Below, piece after piece: positions 1 through 55,965 of a stretch of 64,000 bases of DNA (positions are counted from its first letter, which is position 1; each line of letters starts with the position of its first letter). Under the pieces are notes generated by a model. The model worked only from the letters and a program-made list of their open reading frames with translations, had not been told where the DNA came from and ran no database searches. This DNA is from Whitmania pigra (lineage: Eukaryota; Annelida; Clitellata; Hirudinida; Haemopidae). The stretch lies in the NCBI GenBank assembly GCA_021613335.1, contig JAJTWR010000281.1, positions 1,076,001-1,140,000 of the forward strand, given 5' to 3'. The position numbers and the translations under genes are program-made.

Positions 1-919
1 AAATCCATAGACATTTTTATGAGATAGGGTTAAATTGATGAATGTCTCCAATTAAATTCGAATTGAGTGATAACAGCAATTCCAATTATCATGATTTTCA
101 CCTGGCATCGGAAAACACTGACCTTTGTTAGTCATTCCATTGTAAAATCCAGATCAGTGTTCAGGTGTGCAGAATAACAATTCAGGTCATTAGAGAAAGA
201 ACTAGAATTTTATTAGAGCAGTGATTGATCATAATCACCATCATAATCATCATTACCATCGTCATACTCACCAGCACCATCATCATAATCATAATTACTG
301 TCACCACAAATGTCATTGTCATCGTCGCCTGTATCACAATCAGTATATGCACCATTATCATTTAATCGTTATCATCACCAGCAGTGTCATTATCTCTTAA
401 TCTAGTAATTTTCTCTTAACAAACGGGAATGCTGACAAAAATCTTAAGTACCTGTACTCTTGAAATTGTTGGCTTATCTTGGATCTTTCAGAATATCCTT
501 GGAATAGGGTTGCCTCTGACAATTTAATGGGAAATAATTTATTATTTAGCATTTAATTTTTTTTTATTGATCCAGAGTTATTATTGGTAGCAGTGGTTGA
601 AATGCTTTCTACTTCTAAAAATAGGCTTTGAATTATGTTGAGGTCTAATTTAATTCTAAATTTTATGGTTTTATATTTATAGATTCAAATTAACTACTGG
701 TGTAGACAGATTGATGATCTAGAATGTATGGATGGCCTAATGATGGATGTATTAATTAATTAAGAATCACTTCGTGTAATACAATCCATTATTATTGTTT
801 ATCATTAATTAAGCCCAATCTTCTCTTTTTTTTTTATTCTATTGCAAATTTATTAATTTTATTAACAATTGATTAATTAACTAAGAATTATTTTCAATCA
901 CCTGATGACAATCAGTCAG
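1..919. other. Intronic sequence upstream of the first PKC exon in the window
   Basis: No exon is recognisable here. The stretch is AT-rich, with an imperfect CATCAT/ATCATA simple repeat at about 228-375. It ends in a splice acceptor at 918-919 for the first PKC exon seen. The missing C1 domains and the first part of the C2 domain must lie upstream of the window. Confidence 0.6.
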
Positions 920-5389
<4,470 letters not shown>

Positions 5390-30395: not shown

Positions 30396-33300
30396 AACGG
30401 AGGGTCGGATGTTCCACCTTCCAACTCCGGGAAACTCCTTTCCGCGGTCATGGATCTCATCAAGAACGAAGCAGACGTCAATCAGGGATGCGATGAGGTG
30501 AGTGTTTGGTTTATCTTTGGCATGTGCTTGTTTAAAACTTCGATGCATTGGTCTCCGTGCGAGTGCATCGGAAGATGATGATGATGATGATGATCGTCGT
30601 GATAACGAATGGCTGATAAAGAAATCAAACTTCAAATGATGGCGATGATAATTTGCGGAGATGACGAGATGATAAAAGAAATCAAAATTCAAATCTTGAT
30701 GCATTCTGAGATTTGAATCATTCAGGTCTTTTGATGTGCGCTAGATTCCACTTTCCTCGGAAATCATAGCATCACCATAATGGATACATTGTAATAAACA
30801 TGGTCGTCATCATCACCATGAACACCAACATCATCCTTATCATTCCTTGAATGATACAAAATCGTCATTTTCATCATCATCTTCATCACCATCATCATTT
30901 TCATCAACCTCCTTACCTTCCTCATCATCACCTCATCATCTTTATCATCACCATTCTCTGTCATCATCATCATCATCACAATTACCTCTGTCATCATCAT
31001 CATCATCATCACCATTACCTCTGTCATCATCATCATCATCACCATTACCTCTGTCATCATCATCATCATCATCACCATTACCTCTGTCATCATCATCATC
31101 ATCATCACCATTACCTCTGTCATCATCATCATCATCATCACAATTACCTCTGTCATCATCATCATCATCACATTACCTCTGTCATCATCATCATCATCAT
31201 CACCATTACCTCTGTCATCATCATCATCACCATCATGTGTAGATGGGCACCACGGCTCTCCACGTATGTTGCGAATCCGGCCATCTGGACATGGTTCAAC
31301 TGCTGATCAAACGCGGTGCCAAAGTAAACTGCAGGCGTAGAGTGAGTAATTACGCAACTAATTAAGTAATTAATTATGTAATTAATTAAGTAATTAATCA
31401 TGTAATTATCATAACAAAATTATTAATATATTTAATTGGCGCCCAACAATAAATCAACGTCCAATCCGTTCGCTCATTTATTCACCCTTCTTGCCTTTCA
31501 TCCATCTGTTCTTTCATCAACATGTCCATCCATCATGATGATTTAGGATGGAATGACTCCCCTGCATGGAGCAGTTAGGGGGAACCACGTGACCATTGCC
31601 AGGTGCCTACTGGATAACGGGGCAGACCACACCATTGCAGACAGGGTATGGATTAATTATGGACATCATAAACAATACTTTAAGATGGCTTCTAGAATCC
31701 ACCGAACTGACAATTCAGAAAAAGATCTAATTGAATAAGGATTAATTATTTATTTTATTCTAATTGAATATCAATTTATTATCTATTTAATGAATTATAT
31801 TTTTTCTCTCATAATAATCATATCGTAGAGTGAGTTTACGTTATTATTATTATTATTATTATTATATTGTTAAATAAAAATTAATCAATTGATAAAATTT
31901 GAATTGAAACTTCAGACAGGTCACACTCCATTAACCTTGGCCCTGAACTTGGGGAACAAAATCATAAGTTCCGTCCTCATCAACCATGCAGATGGCTTGA
32001 AGAAGAACTTTTGGAACGTCCACAGGGAGAGGAAAGTGTCGCCATTGCACGCCGCTGTCAGGCGAGATGACGTTGACGCTGTTTCGCGCCTTCTCAGCAA
32101 GTTCAAAGCAGACGACAGCGGAATGGCACCTGATGCTTTCTACTCAAGACTCCATGAACCGAGCAGGGTATTGTGTATTAATTTATTTATTTGTTTAAAA
32201 CATTAATCAGTTGGTTGATACATTAAGAAATTGAAATATTTGTTTATTTATTTATGTCTATTGTCAATATTTAAGACATCACTAATTTAGTTTTGTCGCG
32301 TCGAACAATGAACTGTATGCATATAAATTATGCTAATCATTATAAAATAAATAAATAAATAATTATATTAATTAATTGATCGACTATTTCTTCGTTAGAA
32401 CGGCTTCACGCCTCTACACTCGGCTGCTCAGTACAACAGCAAAGAAGCTGCTAAACTCCTCATTGGCCACGGGGCCAACGTCAACTTCCCTGCTAAAGTA
32501 AGCATAAGCATCTTTCGTTATTCTTAATTTTTCACTATTAGTCTTTCAAAGAAACTACATATAATTCTGCTGATATAATTTAATTTAATACGCTTTTATA
32601 TATACAATTTTTAATAAAATTTATTATAATAAAATAATAATGATCAACAATATCATAATCATAACCATAATCATCATCATCATCATCATCAGCTTATTAT
32701 TATTATTATTATTATTAAAAATTATTATCTGTTGTAGCATTCCGTCACTCCTCTCCATGTAGCCAGTAGATGGGGCAATGCAGATATGGTCAACTTGTTT
32801 TTGGATGAATACGCTGTCATCGAATGTTCTTCAAAGGCAAGCCATATATTTATAAAATCATTTTTTGTTTTTAACTCAAATTCTAAGATTATTTCAACAG
32901 ATATAATAAAATTATAATAAATAACGATTATAACAAAATTATTATCATGTGAAAGCATGAAAAATACTTAATGACAGTTAAATTAATAAGTTATTAAACG
33001 CATTCTAAACATTATACACTTTTATAATCCAAGTTCATCCAGCAATAATTAATTTAAATGCTGATTAATTCCTCAAACAATAATAACTTGAACCAAACAT
33101 ACACACCCAGGACAAACTCACCCCACTGCATTGTGCCTGTCGAAACGGACACACCGAGGTTGCCAACATATTGCTGTGCAGGGGGGCCACGGTTTTGGCC
33201 AAAACCAAGAGCCTCCTCAGTCCTCTGCACCTGGCTGTACAGGGTGATCACGTGCCTACCTGTGAACTCTTGCTGCACTACTTTGCTAACATAGACGATG

Positions 33301-36300
33301 TCACCTGTGTGAGTTGATTGGGTAGTTGCTTATTGGGTAAATATTAATGAACTTAATTTATGTAGCGCCATGGTGTCAGATAAGCTTCTTGTTAACAATT
33401 TATATAGCGCTTCTTCCCAAGGGCGCCTATCGAATAGTAATATTAATGAACACAAAATAAATTGATTAATTATGGATTACTTAAGTTCTGCTGAGGTTTC
33501 TCATTAGTGATTGTTTTACTAACTATTAATAACTGGAATTAAATAAAATAACAAGTTTAATAAATTTCTTCTCCCATAATACAAAATAATAAATTTAATA
33601 ATAAATAATATAATAATTCCATCTGTTCAGGATTTCCTAACTCCGTTGCACGTGGGAGCCCATTGTGGAAGCTACAATTCGGCAAAATTCCTCCTCAACT
33701 CTGGGTGCTTCGTGGAAGCCAAAGCCAAGGTATTCATTAAAACGCCATTAAAGAAGACATTAAGTCCCTTTTTGTTTCTTATTTTAATTATTTTTAATTG
33801 ACCTTCAAATGTGTCTGGTTCCACGAATGGTTTGAAGTTGTGTTAAACTGAAGATAGCTTCTGCACTGTAGACACGTTAAATTGTTCTGTAATAAATAAC
33901 AATAATTATAATATTATAATTAAAAATGATAATATTGTATTGTTATCATCAATATTTTTAATATTATAATGTCATAATCAATTATTACATCACAATATTG
34001 TTGTGAATGTCTTATAATAATCTTCAATTCCACCTGACATTCACCAACTACATCCAATCTTTATGCCTCTCATTATTACCTTGTTAATTATTATTTTTTT
34101 AAATAATTCTTAATAAAGCTACTTTAAATAATTTTTCTTTTATCGCTCCAGAACGGTTTCACCGCGTTGCACGTGGCATGCAGGAAGAACAGGAAAAGGA
34201 TCGTTGAATTGTTGCTCAGGTTCAACGCCCATATAGAAGCTTCTTCTGAGGTTTAGTACATCAAAAATGTTTTCAATGAATTTATTTGATTTTTTTTTAT
34301 ATCTTCTTCAATTTAATTATTTCTTAATGCCATTAATTCTGTTAATAGAGAAAATGCAAAAGTCTGTCCAAATAAATTTTAAAGATAGCAGATGCTGATT
34401 GTTTGTTAGTTTTGGATTATGAATGTAGACCTAGCTAATGCTTAGTGAATTAAAGTTCCAAACTCCTGAGTGATTTGTTTAAAGCTAACTTAAAGCATCC
34501 AAACAGGTTAACCCTTGAACTAACATATTTTTAATTAGTATTGCAATACCAGCAGAGTTATCACGGCATAATTATTAATCTATTATATCTATTATAGTAT
34601 GAATCTATTACAGTTAAACTAACAATCGAACTTTTCCATCACAACCCAAAGGCGGGACTGACTTCTCTGCACGTTTCCAGCTTCCTCGGACACCTGGACA
34701 TCGTGAGAATCCTCCTGGATGCTGGAGCTCACATCGACTGCAGGAACTCGAGATTGGAAAGTCCAATCCATCTTGCCACCAGAGGAGGAAACGTGAAAGT
34801 GGTTGAACTTTTGCTGGACAGAGGAGCGAATGTCAATTCACAAGCCAAGGTGGTGAAGATATTGGTTTTTTTTCTTTGTTGATGTTGACCAGGTATTAAT
34901 ATCTGGTTGAACAATTTTCAAATGATCATTGTGGTCTGACGATGGTGAAAATGAATGTCATAGAACATAAATAATGATATATATGTAATACATCCTTTTT
35001 ACGATATTATAATTCTGCTATACACATTTATCGATTTATATGACAAAAATGACAAAAACGATCATAAAATTAAATAACAAACGATAATTGCTATTTATAA
35101 ATATTATTACAATATATTACAAGCATTCAAAATCCATTCACTTATTGTCAGAATATCAGATAAATGGGAGGCAAATTTTGTCATGTGGTTTTCAAAAAGA
35201 GAGGTACAGAGGGATAATGTTGTATCACAAAGAAAGCCTTTTGATCAGTGAAATTATTTTGGAGAGTGAATTTCTGGAGAAATTATGTGTCAGAGTAGTA
35301 ACTTCACATGGATTTCTCAATGTACTGATGATTTACAGAAGTCCAAATAGTTCATCAGACAACAACGACAAATTAATGCAGTTGTTGGGGGAATTTTTTT
35401 GTTTGGAAGGAGATCATTTGCTCATAGGAGATTTTAATTTCCCAGATATTGATTGGTTAACGACAAGTTGTTCAGGTTCTACAACAAAGATTGAAAATAG
35501 ATTTTTGAATTTTTTGGATGACAGATTTCTGACTCAACACGTCATGGAACCAACGAGATTTAGATTCGGACAAATTGCACATATCCTTGATTTGGTGATA
35601 CCAAATGATATAGTAGAGAATGTTGTTTGCCTCGCACCATTGGGAGGTAGCGACCACTCTATTGTTTCGTTCAATGTTATATGTGATGTTGAAGATAGCG
35701 CCAGAGCTAGAAGAAAGCCCTGCTATGATTTAGGAGATTACACCAGTTTAAATAATGAACTTGATAACAAGCTGGTGGATGTTTTGGAACCCTCTTTGAC
35801 TCTTGAATCAAAGTGGACAGCCTTTAAAAATACTTTAAAAGAGCTGACAAAAAAACACATACCCCACAGACTGTGCAAAAAGTTTAGATTCAAAATGACA
35901 CCAGAGCTTCATGAATTAATAACGAGGAAACACTATTGCTGGAGACAGATCTTCAGGTATGGTGACACGAACAGAATCAACGAATTCAAAGACCTTAGAA
36001 AAAGAGTAAAAAAATTGTCTGTGAAGCTAAATATAGAAAGCCAGAATCAATTAGCAATCAAATTCAAATCAAATCCAAAATTATTCTGGAATCATGTACA
36101 AAAGAAAACAAGAAGTAAAGATGCAATCAGTACAATCTCAGTGGACGGCACTGATTTGATCGAAGGCAAGGAGAAGGCACAGGCTTTTGCGGACTTTTTT
36201 GCTTCAGTGTATATCACGGATTCAGGTTCGGAAGGGACACCTGTTTTCAATCCCACAGTTCCGGGAGTCGAGATGGAGGAGGTTCGGATCGACATAGATG

Positions 36301-39300
36301 TACTGTGTAGGAAGTTGAAAGATCTAAACAGCAGTAAATCAGCGGGACCAGATGGAATTCATCCAAGAGTTTTAAAAGAGACACGGGAATCGATAAAGTG
36401 TTATTTGAAACACATCTTCGATTGCTCCATTCAGTCAGGGGTGGTGGTGGAAGACTGGAGATCTAGCTATGTGGTTCCTCTGTTCAAAAAAGGAATAAAA
36501 AGTGTAGTTTCAAACTATAGACCTGTGTCGTTGACATCGGTTTGTAGCAAAATATTAGAATCAATCATTAAAGACCATCTGATAGCTCACTTTTCAAGAA
36601 ACGATCTTTTCGCTCAAAATCAGTTTGGATTTTTACCATCTCGTTCTACGACTCTCCAAATGCTCAGATTTATGGATACACTTACCAGTGCGGTGGAGGA
36701 CGGAGATGAAGTCGATGTAATTTACACGGACTTGGAAAAAGCCTTCGATAAGATCTCGCATGAAAAGCTACTCTTCAAGCTAGAGAGATATGGGGTGCAC
36801 CACATGGTGGTTGTGTGGATTGGTAATTATTTGTCGGGCCGGAGTTTCCAGGTGAGGGTCGGTGGGGAGCTGTCAGACTCGTTGCCTGTGACTAGCGGGG
36901 TCCCTCAAGGCAGCGTACTTGGTCCATTGCTGTTTCTCATATATATTAACGACATATACACAGTTTGTGAAAACTTATTCTTGTTTGCGGACGACACAAA
37001 AATATATAGAGTAATTAGCGAAGAGGAGGACTGCAGCAAGTTACAGGTGGACGTGGATAACGTAATTGATTGGTTCAACCAGTGGCGCAACTAGGGGGGG
37101 GCAGGGGGGGGCGCAAGCCCCCCCCAGGCCTAATAGGAGAGACCCTGCAATTTTTCCAAATCCGATCAGTTTTTTTTTGGTGGGGGGGGGGGGGGTAAGG
37201 GGATTTAACTGGTTTGAAACTTTGAGACAGAAGATAGTCAAACTCATTAATAAATTATTAAAGATACAAAATAAGACTGTAGACAGAAGATAGTCAAACT
37301 CATAATAATAATAATAATAATAATCTGTTCTATTTTTAATTCTTTATTAATTATAATTGGTAGTTTTGATTTAAACAGTTTCAAAAATTTTTCGACTGCG
37401 TCGGGCTTTCGTCCCTTGTCTAAACTTGAGCTCCCCCCTCAGCATTTTTCGCTGGTTATCTGATGATCAGATAATGTCGTTTTGACAACCCTGCCTTGGC
37501 TGCTCTTGATGCTTTGCAGAATGGCACAATGACTCCCGAGCTTTCGGAATTCTGTAACCTTCATGGAAAAGACGCTGAAACTGTGCAAAGACAGCTCCAA
37601 TTCACATCGACAAGTTTACGTGCTGATCAGTCTGACCCCAATGCGTGTATCGAACTACAAGATCTTTTCTGTGCCACAAGCATTCAGCCCGAGTTGCATA
37701 TGCTCGATGTTGCTCTTACTCAGACATTTACGTCATCAGATGCAGAAAGGGCATTTTCTAAACTTCGCCTTATTAAAAGTCATCTCGGGACGACTATGTC
37801 TGCCTGTCGTTTGCAAAGTTTATTGAGAATATCTGTGAACAAAACAACTACTGCACTTCTTCCAGTAAATAAAATGGTGAACAGATTTTCACAGATTGAT
37901 CGAAAAATTATTTTGTAACTGTAAACACATCAAAATGTAATTTAGACTACAACATTTCAAAATTGTTTTAAACTGTTTAGGATCTTAATTTTATACATAA
38001 TTTAGATTAGGTGAAATGTTTAGGATATCAATCATATCATATTACAATTTTAAACATATCATAAACTTTTTTTTACAGTTGCTTTAACTGGCTTGAAACT
38101 TTGAAACAGAAGATAGTCAAGCTCATTAATAAATTATTAAAGATACAAAAAAAGACTGCAGACTTATAAATAAAAACTTATAATAATAATCAGTTCTATC
38201 TTTAATTCTTTATTAATTAAAATTAGTAGTATTGATTTGAACAGTTTCAAAAATTTTTCGACTGCGTCGGGCTTTTCTAAACTTGAGCCCCCCCCAGCAT
38301 TTTTCGCTGGTTGCGCCCCTGGGTTCAACAGATGGCAAATGAAAGTTAATATGAACAAATGTTGTGCACTGCATGTAGGGGGGAAACACCACTTGAATAG
38401 CTACCAGCTATCAGACCTAGATGGAACAAAATATGAAATTCCAGTTTACAACTCGTTCACGGACCTTGGAATTATAGTAGATTCAGATTTAAAATTCAAA
38501 GAACACATTCTCTCACGGGTTAAGAAAGCAAATATGATGTTGGGTATCATAGCAAGAAATTTTAGATATCTGTCGGATTTTGCTTTCGTGGGTTTGTATA
38601 AGTCTTTGGTGAGGTCTCAGTTGGAGTATGGAGTACAGGTGTGGAGCCCTTATAGACAGGGATTGATTGATGCGATAGAAGGGGTACAAAGAAGAGCTAC
38701 AAGATTAAGACAATCCTGTAGGAACCTTCCTTACCAATCGAGACTAGAGAAACTGAAATTGCCAAGTTTGTGTTACAGAAGAAAAAGAGCTGATTTGATT
38801 TTGTTGTTTAAGTTGTTGACAAGTGGAACGAGAGATTTAGTATGTCCTTCCCTTTCTGTCTGCACATATTCCAAGACCAGAGGACATGAAAGAAAACTGA
38901 TGACAAGACTGGCCCACAAAGATTGCAGAAAGTTTTATTTTTGCAACAGAGTGGTCCAGGAATGGAACAGTTTGCCACAGGAGGTTGTGATGTCAAGGAA
39001 TGTGGAGGAGTTTAAGAGAAACTTGGACGGTTTTTTTGTTAATAGAATTTACAATTTAGATTGAGGGGTTGGCGCACTGGTTTTCGTTTTGTTTTCGGTT
39101 TCGGCGAGGGGCCGTTGGCCTGAGCTGATTTTTTTCAAATAAAACAAATAAAATAAAATTACTTATTAATAGTAACTTTTATGTGTAAGCACGATTAATA
39201 TTATCCCATCAGGAGTTACAGACGCCGCTGCACGTTGCCAGCCATTCGAGCCACCTCGTCCTCATGGATCTTCTGATTGCAAGGGGTGCATCCATTGACC

Positions 39301-42300
39301 CCCTAACCACGGACGGGTACACACCCCTTCACATGGCCGCAGCTCAGGACAACGAGGAGGCCATTTTGTGTCTGCTGAGACACGCTGCTGATGCCAATCG
39401 GCTGACCAAGGTTTTTGTAACTTCTTTATGTTTTTTTTGTGGTATTTTTAACTTTTATTCATGATGTCATAATTGTTGTGATGATGATGATAATGATAGT
39501 TGTGAATGGGGACTAAAAATAACAAGAACTATAAGAATCTTAATTACATTTTAATGTAAATTAAATGTAAACTAATTTCATTCATTCAGCGGCATTTCAT
39601 TTAGTATTAGTTGTTATTAAATACGCTATTTAAAGGAAGTTAAGCAATTTAAAACAGTAATTTATTCAAGCAATTGATTTTGTTTGCGTCACATTTCTTT
39701 TCCCAACCAATCCATCCATCAGAGAGGATTCTCACCCCTCCACGTGTCTTGCAAGTACAATAAGAAAAGGTCAACGAGAATGTTGCTGGCAGGGGGCTGC
39801 GACCCCAACGTGCGGGGCTTGAATGAACTTACGCCCCTCCTCCTTGCATCTCATTATGGTTACCATGACGTCACCAAACTGCTGCTCAAGTACGGAGCCG
39901 ACGTTGGCCTGACTGCCCTGGTTGGCAACATTTGTTTGTTTCGATTTGTTTACAAACAAATCTAGGAAAACGTACGCGTTGAAGTTTTTTTTTTAAATAA
40001 AAATTTTGTTTGTTTTAATAATATCATCGTCGTCATGCTGTTCCTGATATTCGTGTTGATGTTAATGATGTGATTAAAATAGCTCACTGCTAATTCATCG
40101 CGTGTATCGATTTGAAGGGATTAATTATATCATCAAAGCAGCCAGAGCCGGAACATAGTTAATTACCCATTTTCAGTCAGCATTATAATTAATCAGTCAA
40201 TTGCACGATTAATATTTATAATCAGTATTTATAATTAATAATATTAATTAACTGCTAAAAGTTACCATTAATTACCGTAATTAATCAACCACGACATTAT
40301 AATTAATTGATCACCAAGCATAATCAATGGGTCATAATTGCTCAATATCGTGAATCATTATTTTATTAACTATATTCTATTAAAAATATTTGAAATGAAT
40401 ATCAAAATTAAGATAAATATGTTAACAGACCAATTAATTACACCTGTAAATTGTGACAATAATTGTGAATTGATTGTGATAAGAAATAAGAAAAAGAATA
40501 ATAAATTTACTAGGACAGTATTATTATCATAATTTATTATTTACCTTTTAATCAATATATTAGTATAGTACATTATAATTGATTATCTATTCATTATCAT
40601 AATTAATTAACACAAGTTCCATTGGCTACAGAACGGCTACACTGGCCTGCATATAGCAGCTAAGAGGAAGAAGCTGAGGATTGCGGAGGAGTTGTTGAGA
40701 TGGGGGGCTGATGTAAACAGCAAATCCAAGGCACGTTGGGAATTCCACGATTTATGTTTATATCGGTTTCTGTTTATAACTGTTTATCCGTGCCTACATA
40801 TCGAGTGCCTCATTATAATAATATGTATTGTGGAATATAATTTATAATCAAGTTGAACCCACCGATTGCATTTTTACCTATTATTTTTTTTTTAAATATT
40901 GTTCATAAGTTATACATTTATTATTGTCATTATTTCGTCTTAATAACTTTGGAGTTAATTAAAAATATTAGAAATATTATTAATAAATATTTGTAAAACA
41001 TTTTTATAATTATTAGAAATATTAGAAATATTTTTAATAAATAAATAATATTATTAAATATATAAACTGATATACATCAGAACGGTTTTACACCGCTGCA
41101 CATAGCAAGCAGAGAAGGTCATGAACTTATGGTTCAGTTGTTGCTGGTTCAAAGGGCAGAGGTCAACTGCTCCTCAAAGATTGGTCTGACCCCCTTACAC
41201 CTGGCTGCCAGGGAGAACCACGTGGGAGTGGCCAAACTGCTTGTTCTCTACAAAGCCATCATTGATCTTCAGACATTAGTAAATTATTTTTTATAATTAA
41301 TCTAATTAAATTTAACAGATTATATTTCAAATAAATTATCAAATCTTGTTATTAATGACCAATTAATAAGTAATTAATTGATGGCAATGCTACTGATTAA
41401 TTGATAAACAATAGTAATAAATATTAGCTAAAAAAGGTTTATCCATGCATTGTTTGGCTCAACTACAACTATTTTTAACACGGCTAACTTGGTAATGCTT
41501 TGTTGATGCGTGTGATGCAATGTAATCGTGATTCAGTTGTGCTAATCACATTTACAAGTTAACTATTTACAAGTAACAATGTCCGCGATGAACAGAATGA
41601 ATTGAACTTTGGTTAACAACACAGTCAGGTCACACTCCACTGCACACGGCTTGCCACTTCGGACAACTGGAAATGATCAACTTCTTGCTCAGTCATGATG
41701 CTGATCCAAACATTCAGAACAAGGTTTGTTTATAATTATTATTAATAATATAATATTAGAATTTTACAGTCTTATTAATATTAATGAATTATTGCATAAT
41801 AATTTGCGCTGTGCGATTATGTCATAATTTATATTTATATATTATTGTAATTGATATTGACTAAAATTAATTGAATGTAATTATGCAGCACGGCTTCTCC
41901 CCTCTCCACCAAGCGGCCCAAGAAGGTCACGTGACGGTCATTAACATACTACTCAAGTTCAAGGCCAACCCGAACTTGTTAACCTGCGTGAGTGCTCAAC
42001 TGGAAAACCAAACATTCCAAGACATAATTAATGAAATGTTAATTAATAATAATATCATCATTATATATTAATAATATAATAAAAATCACAAAATAAAAAT
42101 ATTATTATTATTTGGAGTATTATTTATTGTTATTATTATTATTATTTCTGGATGTAATATGGATATTTCAGAGCGGCAGATCAGCATTTTCAGTTGCCCA
42201 CCATCTCAATTACATGGCAGCTTCTGAAGCACTCCTCAAGGTCACCGACAAATACTTAACAGGACTGCAAGGCGATGATGATGATGATAATGATGGGGTT

Positions 42301-45300
42301 GGTGATGATTATGATCCGAGCGTGCCTGAGACTATGCAAGAATGCGACATCACCTACCTTTACGACACATACGACGGTAAAAATAAACTTGATTCCGTTT
42401 ACTTTGTTTTTATTTCTAAATAATTTAATATTATAATATAATAAAATATTAATTAATAAATGAGTATTTATAAACGTGAAAATGTTGGATTTCAATTTAA
42501 TAAGGCTTAAATCTGTTTCTTACAACTTACTTATCCAGGGAAGGATTTGTACAGTCAAATAGACAACATCACCTACGGTAATTCCATTTTCAAAACAGCA
42601 CACACTAATGTCGGTTATTAAATAATTAATTAATATTTATTTAATATTATTCAAGACATTGCACCCAGCTTAAAAAAGAACAATAACCAGGTTTGAATTT
42701 TTTTTTTTTTTTTCAAATCACCGAAACAAATATCAAGGTTGTTGTTAAGTTATTTTTAAAGAATCAACATTTTTATCCATGAAGTTGACGCCTGAGGATG
42801 GAAAAGTGGAAAAGTACGACCACCATTCGTTGGATTTCATGGTGGACGAACGTGTCATAGCGGACGAATTGAGGTACACAAGCGAACCCTTGCACGCCCC
42901 ATTCAACTCTACTCCTCTGCCTGATCCCAGTAAGGACTGCCCTTTTATTGGGGCGCAGTTTTCTGAATGCCTGGAGTTTAAGGTGAGTCCTAACGAAGTT
43001 TTGGAATTGAAATTAACATTTTAAATTCTCATTATTTTAGTTCAATATTATGAATATTTTAATTTAAATATTTTTTCAAGATTTTTTACTTAAATATCTT
43101 CTTAAGTTGTTATTTGTTGCTCGTGATTTCAGGCGGATGAATATTCAACAAGTTTAACTTTTCCCAATAAAGCCACCAAAAACAAGAAATCTGGATTATT
43201 AAGAAGGTTCAAAAAGAATAAAAATATTTAAATAAATTATTATTTAATGAATGAACGAAAGCAAATAATAAACATGTTTCTAAGACAATATGAATTAGAC
43301 TGCATTTGAATACATATCGATATCTTCGAATTAATTAAATTGTATTTAAGAGTTTAAAACCTTTCGTAGAATCAACACAACAAACAGAAAATAAACTCAA
43401 CCCATGCAGTTAAAAACACATAATTGCTGATAGTTTATTTCTTGCAATAATTGATGATAATTGTTTTATAATAATTGTTGAGCATTTTGTTATTACAATA
43501 ATTATTTAGACTTGTTTGATTACAATAATTATTGACAATTGTTTTACAATTGTTTAAAGACTAAGAGGAAAATCGGAACCCAGGGTCTCATTGGCCAAGG
43601 ATTTGACCTGTGAACTCATGCACCCATCTGAACTTCCAAGCCTACCTCTACTGGCAGAAGATCAGGAACTTGCTTCGTGGGTGCTGAGATGCCGTCCAGC
43701 TGGAAAAACATTTTCCAGGTTTAATTAAAAATAAATTTAAGTAAATTAAACTGATGCACCTGAATTACGTACGCACGAGTCATGCATCTTAAGAAATGTA
43801 TCGCAGTATGTAATGTCGTTAAGCAGGAACTGAATTTAACTTTGTCTGATTGTAGAAATTGGTGGTTAAGTGCTATGAAATTAATTAAATTATATTTGTT
43901 TAAATATTATCATTTAATTAAATTCATTCTATTATTACAATTGCTTGTTTTTTCTAATATATTTGTATTTCTATATAATTTAATTATTATATTATTTTAT
44001 AATAAATCCATCATCATTATTATATAATAATGGCTGAATTTACCCAGAGCCGTTTCAATAATCGTCCCCCACCTTGCCTCATTAATGGATGGAGAGAGAG
44101 AAATTGCTGTCTACAAAAGCAACAACGGTTTGGATTGGATGGAACACTCACAACAACAACAACAACAACAACACGAGAAGGATTGTTTGGCTGTGTTGAA
44201 GCCCACATTCAGAGGTCGGGGAGTTATTATAATTTAATTATTACAATTATTTTATTTAAATTATTTAAATTATTTAAATATAGGCTTATAATTAAGAAAT
44301 TGTCAATAAGTTTTTAATTAAGTTATTATTAAGAAGTTTATAATTAAGTTATTATTAAGATGTTTATAATTAAATTATTATTAATATCAGGTGTGAACCT
44401 AAAGAATGACCTTTACAGCAAGCATCTCGTCGGCATCACTATCATCACCGTGCCCAGTTACTTGATCCTCGTTTCTAGGGTCTCAGAATCCCACCTCCCC
44501 ATGCACCTACCTGGGCTCATTTTGAGGCCCCCATCCGTCAAACACCCCGTATTCTTGACCATCGGTCAACATGACTGTAACGATGATGATGATGATGATG
44601 ATGACATGCCAAGCATAACTATGTCTGTGCGTTGTTTTGTTTATGTTGGCCTATTTATGTTTGTGAATTCCTTCATTGTTTTCTTTTTTACATATAATTT
44701 TAAATTTTTTAATTTAAATAAAGTTTCAGTTAATTACAGTTATTAATCATTATATTAATTATACACGAATTAATATTGTTTATCAAGAGAAATTATTCAT
44801 TGCACATACATTACTAGTTATTAACATAAATTATTCATTCGTGCATGAATTATTCCAGGCACAGCAGGTTCCTCATGAATTTATAATGAGGATGAAGAAC
44901 TCAGCCACCTGTTCACCTTGCGTGACAATCAAACCTGTTAACGACCTTTTCAAGTGCCCCGTCACGCTGACCCTATCCTGTTTCAACTTGTTGACCTCTG
45001 CAGACGACCAATTAAAACTCTACGTCAGCAAGTCTGGTTAGTTTTAAGAGTTTAGTATAGATTATTAGAGAAGCTAATTAAGTAAATGATCAACTTATGT
45101 AATAGGAATTAAATTTTATTAAACCTAGATAACTAAATTCATCATTTACTAATTAAATTATATAATTAGATTTGTTTGGGCTTAATTATGTTAGCAAATT
45201 GAATCAAATATCATCGAACAATATCTTCCCATGACATAGATAATTCGTTTTGGGTTTTATTACTTCATAAAATAATTCCAAATTTCATTTGAAACTTTGC

Positions 45301-48300
45301 GCATCATAAATGAAAGGAACATACCTTTGTCTTTATTCCTACCTTTGTCTTTGTTTTGCAGAATCCGACTGGTATGACTTGACGAATGTGACTCAATTTT
45401 CCATGAACGAATCAAACACAGTCGTCACATTTGACATTCTTGAAGGGGGAAGGTGTTGAGTTATTCTGGAATGCTCATGAAATGATAACAATAACTATTT
45501 ACTGATAACAGTAAAAAATAACGCATGAATAATAACTCTAACAATAATAACGATGTCATGAAAACAAATTATTGGTTATTATTATTAAAAATAATTATTG
45601 ATTACCAACTAATTAACACAATCATACCTCACAACTTCACAGGTACATCGTCACAAACGGACCAATCGACGAAACGTCATTAAGAAGCGTAACATCGCAG
45701 TTGAACTTGGTTCCATTTTACGCCAAATTCATTCTCTTGTGTCGTCTGTCCACTTCCAATCTCGGTTGTCTCGAATTCGACGTTTTCTGTGGCACGTGTG
45801 ACGTCATCGATGGATTTATAGAAGAGGGGATTAATTTGAAAAAAATCGAATTGTTCCGGAGTGATGAGATAGAGGTCGCTGGTTGAAATCATCCGTATGG
45901 AATGTTTAAACAAATGAAAATATTGAATAATAAAGTTGAAATGCCTAGAATTTCCAAGATATTAATTACGATTTATTGAAATTAACTAAATTAAAATCTA
46001 AAATAAATTGAGTTAATTAACTAAACAACCGCAATATAAATACAGGTGTACCACAACACCTTTCAAGTGTTCACTTTGGAAGGGAGCCATTTCGAGGTGT
46101 GCGATGACAGTCCCGATTGCGTCCTGTTCCAGGCTTTCCAAAGAAATTGCGTCACCGTCATGGCAAAGATAACGGATCGCCACTTGCTGGAGAAAGAAGA
46201 TTCTTTGTTCTTGGAATTGTTCAGAGGAGTTGTAAGCATTTCGTCTCTCATTCCAACTGAGGATCAAGTTTTCTACACGTCACCTCTGTGCCAGTCTGCG
46301 TTCTCATTCACCAAGCATGATGATGTCGATCGAGGTAAGATATAATTCAATGAATAAATCTATATTTAAATACAATTTGTAACCTCAACTTTAATGTAAT
46401 CAATATTTACGAATAAAATAGCAACCTATATAAATAGCCTTCATATTTACAGTCTTATGGTACCCTTTCATCGGTCCATCGCCTGTCCCCCATCGGGAGC
46501 AGCTGCCCCCCATTGCAAATTACTGCCCATCCAATCAGCACATGCCGATAAAAATAAACTTCGACGAATATGCCAATACCATGAAACTGCCGAAGAAATG
46601 CGAGGTTATTAAGTACGACTACCAGGAGAAAATCATCACTGAACCTTCCACGAAGCACTCCGAAACAATGAACGATGATGGATCCACCAGCAGAATCGAA
46701 ACTTCAATTACCTCGACTTTCCGTCTGCTTTACAAATCCCAAGAGGGCAGTGATTCCAGAGAACTGGTGGAGAAGAAGTTGTGCGGGATGGAAATTGTAG
46801 AAACCGTATCCAAGTTTCCTCCCGGGTTAAAAGCAGACGAAATAGAATCGAAAAGCTTGAAGTTCGTCAGTTCGGAAAGAAATGCCGTCGAAAGCGACGA
46901 AAATGGAATTCCTGTTCAGAAGAAGATCATTACAAGAATTTTCCAGGCTCCGAAACCCAAAGTAACGAAAACGGTAACGGAGGGAGAAACGTACGCCGAA
47001 ACAAAGTGCGATGAAGATTTCAAAATACTTCAAAACGGTTCAGCAATTAAAAGTAAAAAGTCAATTACAAGGTACGCTAAGCGAGTTACAGAGAATACTT
47101 TCGTTAATGGAGTCCTGAAGAATTGCACAAAAGAAGATAAAACTGTTAAGAATGAAATTGAAAACTATTCGTTAAAATTGCCAAACCATGCTTTGATTCC
47201 AAAACTGGGAATGTGCACCATCGAGGTAACATTCAACAAGTCTACTGAGAGGAAACACGAGATTGATGAAATTACAGGAGATTTAATGGTCGAAGTTGTT
47301 CCTCAGGTTACCGTTAATGAGGTCGATGGCGATTCAAAATTTGAAAAAGAACCCGCCAAAGTCGATATGATCATTAAAGGTCCTGTTGAGTGCAAAGTTG
47401 AAAAATTTTCTGAAAACACCATCTCCGATTCAGGCGCTTTTGTGAAGATGGACAGAGCAGTCTTGACTTACGTCATGCCCTGCTACGAGGTGAAGATGGT
47501 CGTTTTGGCCGAGAAGAAAAGAGTTGTCAGTGAAGAGATTCTGAGGGTCGAGGTCATTGAAAACATCATTGAACTGCCACCCGGCTATAGCAATCTTGAC
47601 TTTGACGAATATTCTTTTGAAACTAAGGCCAGCTTCAGCGAAGAAGCACCGAAGTCGAGTGTGGCTTACAGGAAGAAAAGCTTTGTGACAAAGTTGATAT
47701 CAAAATCAAATCAAAATGCCGCAAATTTCAGTGGCAATGAACTCGTTTGCCCGAACGAATCTCTGACTAGAATCACCGGTATGGACAGATACTGCGACGA
47801 CGATGACGTTTTCGAATTCCAGAGAACAATTGAGACTAGTTTAGTCCAGCCGATTGCTAACTTCACTTACAACAGAGACGCCGTACCCGTCATCGTCCTT
47901 AAACACAAATACTTAGAAACAGATGTCAGAGATGTCTTCATGAAACTCGAATGTGGCAACATAGAAAGACACGCAGCCAATTGCGATGTCTCCGTAATTG
48001 TTGCTCCAAATGTCTCACTTGACTTGACGTCTTCAAAGAGGATCGTCTTCGACGTCAAGCTGAAGCCGAGGGTAGTAACGAAGCGCACTGAAGGCGAGAT
48101 TCAGGTAAAGAACAGAATGGAAGACTACGTGAAAATCTCTCAGGACGGCAGCTTTAAAAGCCACCACAAAGTCATCATTTCTGAGCACTTCAAACCCATC
48201 ACGATCGTCACACAAATCGACGGGAAAGTCGATCAGATTCAAAAACTGGAGCAGCTCACCTTGACAAAGGTGAAGGAAAACATTTTTGAGATGCCAATTC

Positions 48301-51300
48301 TCGGATTGGACATCGCTGGCTCCGATATCAGCATCAGCACAAATGAAGAGGCCCCGAGCATTGCAGATTCTGATTCGTGCATCAATAAAACAATCACCAA
48401 AATATCCTTAGTGCCTCCCAGAGTCACTAAGGACTCTCTGTACAACAAATGCAGGGAGCCCGAGATTGTTAAGGAAGAGTTTGACTTCGAAGACATCGCT
48501 CTTGACGGAACCATAAACAAACACTTGGTCACCATAGAAACCATGGTGGCCAAACATCAGGATGACGACAAATTCGAAGTAATCGAACAAAAAATCACTG
48601 AAAAGGTTTTGGAAATTCCTCCGGAAGTTGCCGACATCGATGACTCGAAATTGTGCACGAGAACTACTGACAGTTGGGTCCGTGACACGACGTCAACCGG
48701 TGCTCCAAGGATTAAACACGTCATCAGGACCAGACTCTGCAATAAATCAAACAATTTCGACTACGATCCAGTCGCTCGGAACAAGAAATTCCACGAAGAA
48801 TTGGAAGGAGAAATTCAGATGAAAGTGGACGTTCAAGAATTCGAGAAATTCACGAACGACGCGAAAACGAAGCACAAAATCATTACGAGGAAATTTTTGA
48901 AACCAATTACGATAGTCAAGTACGCTGCGAATAAGAAGATTCCCGAAATAACAGTGAGAGAAGACTTGATCAAGGTGGAAATTGAGGAATACGCAATGGA
49001 GCTGGATGACAATCTTTGCTCTCCAGATGACTGCACAAGCACGATAGATAACTACACGTACGTCAACTACCTGCCTAACGGAATTCCGGTGAATACGGAA
49101 GTGACAAAAGTTACCGCCAAACTCAAAAAAGATAAAAACAAGTTGGAACTTTTACCAGAGTCGAATGCGAACGAAAAACACATCAAGCAGAAAGTGAGTC
49201 TCGTTGAAAACCAGGAGCAATTGGCAGACGGGAGCATCGTGAAAACGAAAGTCATGACAAAAGATTGCTTTGAAGTTCTCAAAAAAACCAACGCAAGAGG
49301 TGAAAGCACAGTTTCTGAAACTCTCCTCAAGACGGACATTAAGGAATTCATCATGATCCTCCCTAAAGCTAAAATCGATATTTACGGCTCCAATTGCAAC
49401 TGTGAAATCACTTCGGAATTCAACAGAATCTCCAAAAAGGGAGAACCCACGATCACCAAGCTTACTGTCAGAGCGACAGTCTCGTTGAAATCCGATTGTA
49501 AACAGCAACAGTCTCTGAGTTACAATGAAATTTCTAAATATCTCTTTGGGGTCAAGTATGGTGACGTCATTAGGAAGGAAATCGTCGAGTACGACGAACA
49601 GTCGAACGAGTCGTTCACCGAACGTATCAGGAAATTCAGTGTAGTCAAATCCCGGCCATTTTACGCTCTGACACCTGATGGCGATAACATCGAGAAAAGG
49701 ACTTTGGCAGGGAGTAGGATTGAAGAGATTGAAACCATAGACTGCAGACTGGAATGTCTTTCTGAAGAAGCCAACCTAGGATACGAATTTGTAGAGATTA
49801 AGAGTTGCGCATCAGAGGAAAATAATTATTACGAATGTGGAATCTTTAACAAAGTACTGAAAATCGTGTGCACCATGGGAAAAGCTGATTCTGAGTTTGT
49901 AAAAAGTTCGTGGGTTCTAGAAGACAAAATTGATAAACGTGTCGAAGTCTTGAAGGAAGAGGATGAATTATGCCCCAACGGTTCTTTGAAGCGAAGCATC
50001 ACCTTTGCCCATAAATATTTCAAAGTCGTCAGTTCGGTCAAGCTATCGCCAAAGTTTTACTTGGAGTTGGAAACATCTGAAAAACTGCTCGAATGTAATC
50101 TTGTAGTTGTTGATGTGACAATATCTCCGTGCACGTTGAAGGATGAAGATGATTACAACGTCGAAATGAAGACATCCAATGACTGGGAGGAAGTTGCTGA
50201 CAAAACGAGAAGCCAGCATATTGAGATGTCGTTACTAGGGTCACCGGAATGTACCTTTCAGGATGCTAAGCTTTTGAGATCATCGTCAGAAAATGAAAAA
50301 GAAACTTTCCTCTCTGATGGAACATTGGTAAAATGGAAAACCCTAATCTCGCAAACTTTTCTGACCTGCACCAAGTGTTTGGAACAAGAAAATGAAACTA
50401 AAATGAATCTGCACAAAATTCTCTTGAAGACAAATATTTTTATTGCTCTTGTAGAAATTGGACCAGACGTGGTAATCGATGAAACGAAGAATGAATTTGA
50501 GTCACTTCTTTCAAAAGACTCTGCCTATTTGCTCATGCCAGATGGGAGTTTGTGCTGCAAGAATGCTGCCAAATTTGTCCTCAAGAAATCAAAGGGAAAT
50601 TCCAAGTTGACTGTTCAACAATCACGAAACAAGAAATTATCTCACAAAAACACCAAAGAAACTCTAGAAGACGGGTCTGTGGCGTACAAATGTGTTTCAG
50701 TCGCTTCAACTATCCGACCTTACTACAGAATTGCTGAAGATCAACAACTGATGCTCAACGAAGATGTTTTGGACAAGGAAATTCAAGAGGTTGTCCTGTG
50801 CTTGAAGCCTGAAATTTCATTTGGCAACCCGCTGACATATACCGTACATGATGGGGTGGAAATAAACAATAAGCAGAAAATTAAAAGAAGAGTTATCAAA
50901 TTGGGAAATGGTGGTGAACGTTCAAAAATCGAGGATAACGGAATCCTGACTATTTGCGGAAATTTGGAGTTGGAAGATGACGAAACCGAACAAGAATTCG
51001 ATTCCCCTGGACACATTTCAAAAACTAACACTTGGAATAAGACGTTATTTAAATGCATTACAGACATCCAATCTGACAAGAATAAAGCATCATTAATTAT
51101 TACAAGTAGGAAATTGGAGTTGTACAGGGAATCGTATCTAGCCCACGTCCGCTTACCACTGGGCTCACTCAACCCAAAGAAATGCAATGTGTTCATAACA
51201 TTCGGGAATGTGGAACACCACGATGAAAAGACGTACATAAACGAAGTAAGAGCAAATGTTGAGGTAAGCATATTAACAGACTCACAGTTGACCGTGTCTG

Positions 51301-52964
51301 GCAAAGCCCTAGTTCTTCCGAAAACGAAAGTCACAACCGACTCAAACGAAAGCGAAACGCTGTGCCGCAAGAGCGAAGTGATCACCACCGAGGTCCTCCC
51401 AGACGGCTCTCTCGGCAGAAAGAAAATAATCACGACGACTTTCTACAAGAAGCGATGGGAAACTGTTTGTGTCGATGGAATCGAAACATCTTGCAGAGAA
51501 GAAGAAATTCCAGTTGGCAGAACAGAAGAGATTCATCTGCTTCATCTGCCTTTTGGGTCAAATGATGTCGATTCAAATGATTGGGACACTGAAGTGACCG
51601 AGGTAAGAGATGAAGGTGAAAAGCAACTTGACGGACTGAACATGAAGTACAGGACGACTCATCTGAAGCTCATCCCAAGGTCTGGTCACACGACTAACGC
51701 AGATGAAACGACTCAAGAAGTTTTCCAAGGAGAAATTCAGACTAAAGCGGACATTTCAGAATCTCAGGAAGCTTTAGAAGATGGTAGCATTCTCAAGAAG
51801 AAGGTCATCACCACCTGCTTCTATAAGCCAGTTACAAAAACGATTTCCAAGAACGGTAAGGTCATAAGTTCATCAATCTCCGAGCACACAGTAAGCATGG
51901 AAGTGGAGGAAATATATCTCCAGCTTCCACCTGGCCACATTGAACCGTTTGGAAATAACCTTGTAACAGAAACGACGATTCTGCACAATGATGAAATGCT
52001 TATTGATAGCATACCTTCGAGGAAAAAGATCATAAAGATGAGGGTGACCCTGCAAGACTCAGAGACACAATCTCTGACAGCCAGTGCTCAAACTGACACT
52101 CCGTATGAACTTGACTCCAACAAGAGGATAGAAGGAGAGCTCATATCCTCGACCAACTTCTCAGAAAGAAGTTCGACAAACGAAGATGGCGAAATGGTTA
52201 TATGCAAAACCACCAGGACTCGATTTTTCAGGCCCGTCGCAGAAATAACGATATCGAACGGACGGATTTCGAACGCTCTCATCAATGAAGAAACCACTCA
52301 CTATGACATCTGTGACACCATTACAATATTGTCGCCCGGTGTTGACAGTTTGAGCGATTCAAGCGTCATTACTGTCAGTACCGAAGACGTGTTAAATGAA
52401 AAGAATCAGGCAGGTATCCCAATACTGAGGACTGTGAAAACCAACAAATTGTTTAAAGTCATGGGGGCTTCAAAAACGATTGTTCCACAGGACGATGAGA
52501 ACCTTCATTGTCTAAAATCTTTATTTCCACAGATATTTCTCGAGCAGAAAGAAATCGGAGATTCAATTAAAATCTTCTCCCAGACAGTAGAAAATGAACC
52601 AATGAAAAACACAAAGATTCAGGAATTTGTTGACATTCTACCAGACGGCACAAAAGTGAAAAGGAGAGTGACTGAGACTGTTGAAAAAAGATCGATCATC
52701 AGAAGGCTGGCAATGGAGGGGGAAGACGGCGTTAGTATCACGAAGGGCATGTTCCTCTGCGGCATTCACCCCGTATCGGAATGCGAAGAAAACCATCCAG
52801 CAGAGCAAGAAGTACCCGAGTCTGAAGATGCGGATTTTCCTTTCCTCGGATCAAGCGCCATCAAAAAGCGCTCCGGAACCAGCACACACAAGAAATTCGT
52901 TTCCGAGACTAGCTTCACTCTCGCCAAAGATTTGAACGAAGCCAACGAGTTTTTCGAATCCTAG
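30396..52964 (+). CDS. ANK: Ankyrin with giant repeat-tail exon (about 3547 aa)
   Basis: Adaptor linking membrane proteins to spectrin. Exons: 30396-30497, 31243-31341, 31547-31645, 31916-32167, 32399-32497, 32738-32836, 33111-33308, 33631-33729, 34152-34250, 34652-34849, 39213-39410, 39723-39920, 40632-40730, 41081-41278, 41625-41723, 41889-41987, 42172-42376 (ANK repeats; mostly 99 or 198 nt, phase 0); 42539-42577, 42656-42690, 42785-42982, 43133-43206 (linker); 43566-43718, 44048-44214, 44391-44626, 44859-45036, 45362-45452 (ZU5-ZU5); 45643-45874, 46046-46334 (UPA); 46453-52964 (UPA end plus giant tail). Lengths sum to 3548 codons. The repeats align one-to-one with those of vertebrate ankyrins (e.g. 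NGFTPLHSAAQ, DKLTPLHCACRNGH); ZU5 shows SIIVPHLASLMDGEREIAVY. ZU5 and UPA are divergent. Two introns start with GC (32837, 40731). The N-terminus may continue upstream: 30390 is an ATG but 30376-30395 also reads as an acceptor. No death domain exists before the next gene. Confidence 0.93.
30951..31238. repeat. Minisatellite of about 33-36 bp units built on (TCA)n
   Basis: Eight to nine head-to-tail copies of CATTACCTCTG followed by (TCA)5-7, ending within a few bases of the acceptor of ankyrin exon 31243. The long Ser-rich, His-rich and Met-rich reading frames on both strands are products of this repeat. Confidence 0.9.
35088..37079 (+). mobile_element. CR1-like LINE, 5' part (endonuclease end and reverse transcriptase)
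   Basis: An open reading frame of 660 codons in an ankyrin intron. It contains the end of an apurinic-type endonuclease (LLIGDFNFPDIDW, GGSDHSIVSF), then reverse transcriptase blocks ([72 protein letters not shown]). The start of the endonuclease and any ORF1 are missing, so the copy is 5'-truncated, as is usual for LINEs. The frame is broken at 37079 by the hAT insertion and resumes at 38330. The true 5' boundary is not visible. Confidence 0.9.
37080..38321. mobile_element. hAT transposon inserted in the LINE, 8-bp target duplication
   Basis: Ends CAGTGGCGCAACTAGG and, inverted, CAGGGGCGCAACCAGC. Both sides carry GGTTCAAC (37072-37079 and 38322-38329), an exact 8-bp duplication as made by hAT transposases. 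Inside, 37496-37918 encodes the C-terminal hAT dimerisation region (SSDAERAFSKLRLIKSHLGT); the catalytic N-terminal part is absent. A block of about 230-255 bp occurs twice (37204-37458 and 38083-38312), the second being the element's right end. Confidence 0.9.
38322..39160 (+). mobile_element. CR1-like LINE, 3' part
   Basis: It continues the LINE frame from 38330 to a stop at 39062-39064. It shows the thumb and C-terminal segment typical of CR1/L2 proteins (SLVRSQLEYGVQVWSP, VQRRATRL, EKLKLPSLCYRRKRADLI, VVQEWNSLP). The short 3' UTR ends in an A-rich AAATAAAACAAATAAAATAAA tail at about 39138-39160, as expected for this clade. Confidence 0.88.
43207..43231 (+). other. Read-through extension with in-frame stop in an ankyrin exon
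   Basis: If the donor at 43207 is not used, the frame of exon 43133 continues for eight lysine-rich codons to a TAA at 43229-43231. This would end the protein after the ANK repeats and before ZU5. Confidence 0.4.
46453..52964 (+). other. ANK: Giant ankyrin exon: about 15 divergent tail repeats
   Basis: One uninterrupted 6512-nt exon. After the end of UPA (to about 46560) the protein is a series of roughly 120-145 residue units. Each unit has a core D-G-S/T-x3-K-x-K-V-I-T-x2-F (e.g. DGSIVKTKVMTKDCF near 49228, DGSLGRKKIITTTFYKK near 51402, DGSILKKKVITTCFYKP near 51779), often preceded by an EGEIQxK motif (48084, 48803, 51727), then a conserved E-I-x-L-P/PP-G segment and a second K-rich strand. 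Cores near the middle are weaker. It is acidic and lysine-rich, without membrane segments, and has no death domain. Codon and base use look like the neighbouring coding exons, so this is selected coding sequence. Confidence 0.85.
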
Positions 52965-53166: not shown

Positions 53167-53172
53167 AATAAA
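53167..53172 (+). terminator. AATAAA polyadenylation signal, ankyrin gene
   Basis: First AATAAA about 200 nt after the stop of the giant exon. Confidence 0.45.
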
Positions 53173-54000: not shown

Positions 54001-55965
54001 TTACTCACAGTGAGAACGTGATCTCGACCTGGAACGAGACCTCGAATAACGTCTTGAACTGTAATAAGGACTTCTCCCTCTGTCCGATCGATATCCCGAT
54101 CTTCTGCAAGGCCAAGTAACCAATAATTAGAATAAATAAAACTAAATTTTTAATCTTAAGTTCATTTCCAGAAAACACTTACGAAGTGGGCTTTCCAAGA
54201 TATACTCCAGGAGTTGGGGTGTGTGCTCTCTCTGTGATTGAATAATCAACTCTGATGGGTCTGCCATCAATTTCTGTACCTGGTGCCATCTCCTTAGCCT
54301 GAAGAGTTAACAATCGAATTAGTAATCACTATTTTATGCATTCCATTGATCCTTATTATGACTCTTCAGAAATCCAAAGTTATGCATGACAGTTTCCTTG
54401 CCAATGCAATACCTGGCAAATTGTGAGAACATGAACTAACCTCCTTGGCATCTTGGAGACTGTGCATGTATATAAATGCAAAACCTCTGGACTTTCCTGT
54501 CTGGTGATCATAGACAATCTGGAGGTCGTCGACAGGTCCATACTTCTCAAACGCCTGTCTCAAATCTTGCTCCTGGGTATAAAGACTCAATCCAAAAACT
54601 CCAAGACACTTGCTGACTTTTGGTCTTTCCTGTTTTTTTTCAAAAGGATTTTCAGTTTTCAAATTTAATGATAGTCCAATTTTTCATTTTTCAGTCTTCT
54701 AAGCATTTTCAGCCTTCCAAGCAAAACAACATTTTGTACAGTACAGTTATCTGGATCAGCTGAAAAAACTGCTCTGTAAAGCAGAAAAACAAAATCGCTA
54801 ACTCACCCTATCTCCATCATGTCTCTTCCTTCTTGACATGGGACTTCTACTGAATCTCCTCCTATCATCGTATCTGGAATATCATAAGAACATTTTAGAC
54901 ATGGTACAAACTACCACAACTATAAAAAGCAATCCAACCTGTCGGATCTGTATCTGTCATGACTTCTAGACCTCGACCTGCTCCTATATCTCCTGTGATA
55001 ACTCCTTGATCTGTACAAATAAATTTAGTTTGTCAGTCATTTCTCCAAAAAATGACAGAATGTGCTCATCCATTAAGGATTAAATAAAGTTCAAACGTGG
55101 AATAAATTACAACCTTGATCTGGAATATCTCCTATTCCTGCTTCTCGATCTATTAGAATTACAAATAATAATTTTTTAAAGCATGTTTTAATTTGATAAA
55201 ATGAATTCAGGTCATAATTCTTGAATCATAAAATCCAATATTGATGGTACTAAAGCCCTAAATTACATGAATGAAATCTAACCTTGATCCCCTCTCCTCA
55301 CTCAGAGAACTGGAATAAAAATCATTAATTAATGCTCATAAAATAATAAACAATAAGCATTTCAACAAATTTATAAAAAAAATATGGCTAATAATTATTC
55401 AGACTACACTGCACCATTCTGAACATATAAAAGTTAAATGTAATGTTACACAGCATATTTCCATAACTAACATTCAATGGTTCTTACAATTCTATTAAAT
55501 CAACTTGAAGAAATTAGAGCTAAGTCATGTTAAACTTTAAGTATGTTAGCTTCTACTTAGTTAATGACAATATTCCGTTAAATGCATATCCCGATGGTGA
55601 CTAAGCATGAATGAATGAATGTCCCATTTGTAGCATGTAATTAAACATGTCAATTCTTGGGACAATTCATGTGTGAAACAAATTCTAGATGTACATGCAC
55701 CATTTGCAAATAAATGCTCCGTAACATAAACAGTATTGACTAAGCCAGAAAGAAAACTTACGGTGATCTGGAAGGAGAGCGTGAAGGAGACCTCCTTCGT
55801 TTGCCTCCATGTTTACCCATTGAGTCGCCATGTTCATGGACCGAATTTGATCTCGATCGAGAATAAGATCCCTGAAATGACATAATCCAAAATTGAGTCG
55901 AATGAAATAAATTAAAACTGCGTTTTGCATCAGTTTAGAACTATCTTTACCCTGGGTCTTCCCAT
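54001..55965 (-). CDS. TRA2: Transformer-2 splicing factor
   Basis: SR-like nuclear protein that binds GAA-type exonic enhancers and promotes exon inclusion. Nine exons: 55965-55951, 55871-55762, 55309-55283, 55149-55114, 55010-54939, 54873-54807, 54629-54441, 54298-54183, 54103-54001; 735 nt, 244 residues, with all phases consistent. Order: RS1 domain (residues about 1-108), RRM (about 115-190), RS2 tail. The RRM shows RNP2 [13 protein letters not shown]1 RGFAFIYM and the linker [15 protein letters not shown], which is diagnostic for Tra2. The tail ends [14 protein letters not shown]. The first coding exon holds only MGRPR. The RS1 domain is built of very small exons (27, 36, 72, 67 nt) that could be alternatively used. 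Confidence 0.95.

Follow-up and report, generated by a model that had tools for sequence, protein, structure and literature searches.

A reading frame of 2176 codons without a stop (46434-52964, + strand) lies in the window analysed here, a stretch of 64,000 nucleotides from the leech Whitmania pigra, and raises the question of whether it is the giant exon of an ankyrin gene and, if so, what kind of tail it encodes. Giant ankyrins are reported to organise the proximal axon, and their long exons are treated as fast-evolving and without lasting homology (Jegla et al., 2016, PMC5135030; cited here and below from part of its text). We first give the features of the gene, for which ankyrin similarity was located by tblastn with the proteins P0031, P0034 and P0035.

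31246..41984, + strand: ankyrin-repeat exons split by introns (at least 12 separate stretches with each of the three queries)
43582..44524, + strand: first ZU5, divergent, in pieces (43582-43713, 44049-44150, 44405-44524; E 2.5e-7 to 0.09, 4.5 kb target)
44853..44975, + strand: second ZU5, divergent piece (E 8.8e-5; Pfam ZU5 18.5 bits against a cut-off of 21)
45710..46334, + strand: UPA on two exons (45710-45876, part, and 46046-46334; E 0.007-0.039)
46335..46452, + strand: intron of 118 bp, GTAAG...TTTACAG, phase compatible on both sides
46453..52964, + strand: predicted giant terminal exon, 6.5 kb, stop TAG at 52962-52964
53167..53172, + strand: AATAAA, possible poly(A) signal, 203 bases past the stop, read from the sequence

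Upstream of the giant exon, similarity to ankyrin repeats (ANK), ZU5, ZU5 and UPA runs colinearly, in the standard ankyrin order. The ankyrin-repeat stretches are strongest at 33096-41984 (E down to 2.8e-18) and weak at 31246-32836; the two UPA exons, when joined, scored 20.3 bits against Pfam UPA_2 (E 5.1e-4, cut-off 22.7). The second of these exons ends in ...GATCGAG at 46334, with a GT donor at 46335, and the giant exon begins at 46453, just after the acceptor TTTACAG. The splice phase matches across the intron because the upstream exon leaves one base and the giant exon supplies two. As in giant ankyrins, a very long exon is in frame with an ankyrin head. The proposal of the first-pass annotation that a giant ankyrin exon continues the UPA domain is supported by the colinear head, by the splice phase and by 12 open reading frames (P0016-P0019 and P0021-P0028) that carry UPA and units in frame.

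Domain order identifies the head as that of an ankyrin, and a fast-evolving one. Genome-wide ZU5 and UPA searches (E up to 1e-3) did not list the window gene. The D-A-R-G motif in the first ZU5, which bears on spectrin binding, is present in P0031, P0034 and P0035 and was not found at 42700-44300 when three frames were read; in the window gene it may be lost, or it may lie on an exon with changed letters. Because ZU5 and UPA fall below the curated cut-offs and are unlisted genome-wide, and because no D-A-R-G was found, the usual partners of the head may be lost.

The surroundings of these domains hold other elements. An intron of the ankyrin gene at about 34850-39135 contains a retroelement (35088-39061, + strand), in which a frame of 668 residues that matches endonuclease (PF14529) and reverse transcriptase (PF00078) is followed by further frames to 39061. 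A nested insertion in the retroelement is suggested by a hAT dimerisation match at 37475-37915, which is weak and below cut-off. The next coding sign past the ankyrin gene is an RNA recognition motif (PF00076, 53.5 bits) at 54369-54683 on the - strand, and an exon for an ABC transporter transmembrane region (PF00664, 44.4 bits) lies at 20449-20763, also on the - strand.

The giant exon had been annotated as an array of about 15 divergent repeats. We analysed it with a unit HMM of 107 positions, which was started from a single P0005 unit and extended over 28 proteins (P0004-P0031); neither the window exon nor its close copies P0002 (99%) and P0003 (85%) were in this training set. The exon gave 15 stretches totalling 441.1 bits, whereas the best of 200 shuffles reached 5.4 bits (whole protein; 7.1 bits for a single stretch) and the reversed exon -25.9 bits, so the array stands as described. 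The coordinates below come from the unit HMM and a blind internal test.

46638..46934, + strand: unit 1, 26.1 bits
46980..47249, + strand: unit 2, 32.7 bits
47409..47678, + strand: unit 3, 29.9 bits
47799..47996, + strand: unit 4, 11.9 bits, weak
48090..48404, + strand: unit 5, 33.9 bits
48516..48734, + strand: unit 6, 21.0 bits
48804..49118, + strand: unit 7, 44.9 bits
49179..49460, + strand: unit 8, 39.1 bits
49935..50183, + strand: unit 9, 6.7 bits, within shuffle range
50283..50573, + strand: unit 10, 23.1 bits
50643..50819, + strand: unit 11, 14.1 bits
51381..51668, + strand: unit 12, 42.8 bits
51729..52049, + strand: unit 13, 87.4 bits, nearest to the consensus
52131..52445, + strand: unit 14, 49.6 bits
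52593..52736, + strand: unit 15, first half only, 24.3 bits; a half-unit also terminates other ankyrin tails

Since a shuffled single stretch reaches 7.1 bits, unit 9 is at noise level and unit 4 is weak. Unit starts are spaced 96-154 residues apart, save two steps of 252 and 246, and the mean pairwise identity of the 15 stretches is 24%. Internal self-similarity, which had been set beforehand as a test of the array, was present: without any outside sequence, 54 of 103 windows along the exon gave 121 non-self matches at E < 1e-3, compared with one match in total from 20 shuffles. Raw autocorrelation of the exon showed a weak period (strongest at lag 108, where it barely exceeds the shuffled maximum), and the period is clear in P0004 and P0005. 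A phmmer search with a single P0005 unit recovered only part of the units of the window exon. The two segments that the annotation had given as typical of each unit, D-G-S...K-x-K-V-I-T and E-I-x-L-P, are indeed present, but not in every unit.

The consensus of the unit HMM reads EGevqsrtdveefeetldDGttvkrkvtttehvkpvtevtvvdgvekeetreelvgteIeeevlelppGvtepegenvetetsveeseetlpDGtwvkkkvttttvt. By hhalign, its positions 4-31 are homologous to its positions 78-105 (probability 97.4, E 1.1e-11, 28 columns), and both halves are largely acidic before D-G and largely basic after it. Acidic residues occupy position 12 in 72% and position 88 in 70% of cases; basic residues reach 68% at positions 24 and 26 and 82% at position 99. 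The middle segment that separates the halves carries the conserved motif I-x-E-x-V-x-x-L-P-P-G and is hydrophobic in 97% of cases at positions 59 and 66. Hydrophobic positions alternate, and G and D-G are near-invariant, across 478 aligned stretches. This pattern suggests that the two halves are paired, charge-complementary beta-hairpins, and it suits beta-rich units. In composition, S, E, T, D, K and P together make up 46.5% of the window exon and I, V and L 23%.

Pfam gave no family above cut-off on the window exon, P0004 or P0005, and the PDB gave no sequence match to the unit. Matches to DUF3906, PAP_central, NTNH_C, Minor_capsid_1, bMG1, ASD1 and others on giant tails were rejected, all being below the Pfam cut-off. 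In the open-access literature we found no description of a two-hairpin tail unit. Beyond what the first-pass annotation had noted, the unit family is common to other giant ankyrin tails, the unit is internally duplicated and no death domain was found in the window gene.

How widely is the unit shared? Unit stretches occur in all 28 of the proteins P0004-P0031, which is not a survey, because these proteins were collected by similarity. Across the 31 proteins P0001-P0031 there are 390 near-full-length units, and P0033, from outside the training set, has 25 stretches (1554.7 bits). In P0031, units lie behind a full ANK-ZU5-UPA-Death head, all in one protein. The 12 open reading frames named above have UPA and then units, like the leech gene, but no intron between UPA and the array; they hold 11-14 units (counted at slightly different thresholds), in an order that is not clearly that of the leech exon, and Pfam lists no Death in them, a result that was the same when two of the 12 (P0016 and P0023) were rescanned. 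After P0002 and P0003, the best relative of the window exon is P0010 (4112 aa, 1168 bits), which differs from it in having 29 units and a head outside its open reading frame. By phmmer, in which long proteins score higher, the exon is then closest to P0010, P0033, P0004 and the 12 UPA-unit frames, so a separate lineage of UPA-then-array ankyrins is likely.

The nemertean Tubulanus polymorphus provides a more distant case. Its ankyrin LOC141904097 isoform X21 (P0035) has an ankyrin head and tail half-units (38.0 and 39.3 bits), like the leech gene, but unlike that gene it has a death domain, behind which the half-units are placed; isoform X21 contains no full unit. Sequence similarity thus shows sharing between the two phyla for tail half-units only. 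The tail search, by a method that needs shared exact words, returned no vertebrate or insect ankyrin by name. Within the leech genome, the unit or its halves were found at ankyrin loci on contigs C283, C20, C21 and C99 and weakly on C333 (at least four other loci). This reading took in about 10 kb surrounding the tail matches on C21, C20 and C283 and 10 kb behind the UPA of C99, C359, C333 and C161; C324, C136 and a second C21 locus were covered by short search loci only. No unit was seen in the 10 kb behind UPA on C359 and C161. From these comparisons, the window exon is very probably the terminal giant exon of a fast-evolving leech ankyrin paralogue, whose tail module is common to other giant-ankyrin tails; the module appears to be used in the giant ankyrins of at least spiralian worms.

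The leech ankyrin family is large, with about ten UPA loci by sequence search: 10 were found, and the window gene, missed by that search, comes in addition. A Death match lies close behind UPA at four of the 10 (C283, C333, C99 and C359), and death-domain-like exons recognised by eye on C21 at 2.61 Mb bring the number with a death domain to five. Death was not matched at C161, C324, C21 (57 kb), C136 and C20, and on the window's own contig, C227, there was no Death match at E up to 1e-3. The miss on C227 is by itself weak evidence, because the same search gives no Death at five other UPA loci. It is mainly the 118 bp intron, which separates the UPA exon from the giant exon and leaves no room for a death domain behind UPA, that makes the window gene seem to lack this usual ankyrin domain, although splicing from within the giant exon to an unseen exon downstream may occur. 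In the same genome, a Hirudin match (28.8 bits, cut-off 25) covers only 19 of 64 positions, and further hirudin-like reading frames beside it were recognised by eye. The animal is accordingly a hirudin-bearing leech, and with this match a flatworm or nematode origin was discarded.

The units of the window exon bear signs of age. Against P0003, all 15 have their best matches in order, identity is higher within units (87.1%) than outside them (81.7%), and only 6 and 2 residues are unaligned; this order, the higher identity in units and the near absence of gaps argue that the units are old, have been kept one by one and lie in a constrained frame. When unit order was compared between the window exon and 11 proteins, it was kept in P0010 (rho 0.85) and weakly supported in P0033 and P0019, with rho about 0.55 and an uncorrected p of about 0.03; it was unsupported in the other seven of the 11. 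The arrays of P0005-P0009 look recently expanded, since their units are near-identical (highest identity 0.97-1.00). At a further leech locus, L006 (C20:160700-170600), the ankyrin tail at 3-3697 is made of nearly identical tandem repeats, about 251 residues long, in each of which the second half of the unit is matched once; from its repeats, this is a recently expanded array, unlike the old one in the window.

Like vertebrate AnkG and AnkB, fly Ank2 and worm UNC-44, the leech gene places one unusually long exon after its ankyrin head, and repeat arrays like that of the leech exon occur in some bilaterian giant ankyrins (Jegla et al., 2016, PMC5135030). In other respects the leech exon departs from what the part of that paper cited here reports. 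The protostome long exon sits behind the death domain, whereas the leech array is directly behind UPA, with no death domain found. Reported repeats are 36-228 bp in size, with homology only between very close species; compared by description, the leech unit is longer, at about 320 bp (107 residues), and can be recognised in many diverged tails, its half-unit even between leech and nemertean, so that the unit family would depart from the reported limit on recognisability. Long exons are described as S/E-rich, with Ser, Glu, Thr, Asp, Lys and Pro together above 55%, a share that the leech exon does not reach at 46.5%. The nearest parallel in the same source is fly Ank2-XL, which also has a long repeat array in its long exon and has been proposed to be a molecular spacer; again by description, it has 93 highly conserved repeats of 76 residues, as opposed to about 15 diverged units of 107 residues in the leech.

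We propose that in each module the middle segment is flanked by two hairpin-like halves, each made of an acidic strand, an Asp-Gly turn and a basic strand, and that the modules would fold into short beta-rich beads. The tail would then be a long connector with many similar sites, which may allow a head tied to membrane proteins to extend to the cortical or axonal cytoskeleton and keep hold of it, by analogy with the giant ankyrins of fly and worm, which are reported to act in axons, with microtubules (PMC5135030). That the exon is a giant ankyrin exon and also encodes a long cytoskeleton-connecting tail is, as a joint claim, moderately probable in our judgement, the connector mechanism being rated lower than the identity. 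The weak head matches, and predicted starts of P0002 and P0003 at an internal ATG of the exon, would agree with the frame being a gene of its own, without introns, that follows an ankyrin-like gene in decay; phase-matched splice sites only 118 bp apart, 12 frames that join UPA to units and P0031, which combines head and units in one protein, render that origin highly improbable.

The nature of the tail is a closer question. The tail might be mostly disordered, as has been supposed of other giant ankyrin tails, its repeats being short linear motifs in a flexible spacer rather than folded modules. The exon is rich in E, K, T and S, identity between units is as low as 24%, and the share of S, E, T, D, K and P still leaves room for disorder. 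Yet about 107 residues is long for a linear motif, and the alternating hydrophobics and near-invariant G and D-G persist over the aligned stretches. S/E-rich long exons are on record, but their six-residue content exceeds 55%, above that of the leech exon with its 23% of I, V and L (PMC5135030). On this evidence we consider a mostly disordered tail unlikely, if still a serious alternative. Folded units could also have as their main role the clustering of one partner (a channel, an adhesion protein or an enzyme) on a multivalent dock, instead of a link to the cytoskeleton, as the many similar sites, the charge-patterned strands and the divergent ZU5-UPA of the head would allow. No such partner is known, and giant-ankyrin roles on record in the cited text involve microtubules (PMC5135030); we regard the dock as improbable. 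We favour the reading of a giant ankyrin exon with a tail of folded modules.

The unit may be an old folded domain that the spiralian, perhaps the protostome, ancestor already had in its giant ankyrin, and it would trace a giant-exon homology thought lost; in one annelid lineage, a pure array behind UPA would have taken the place of the death domain. We hold this tentatively, at slightly under an even chance. A recognisable module would make giant-exon homology directly testable by profile search. The unit, a domain family without a model in the Pfam copy searched, is also a defined piece to express and solve, and the natural variants in unit number, together with those missing the death domain, would let the roles of tail length and of the death domain be probed.
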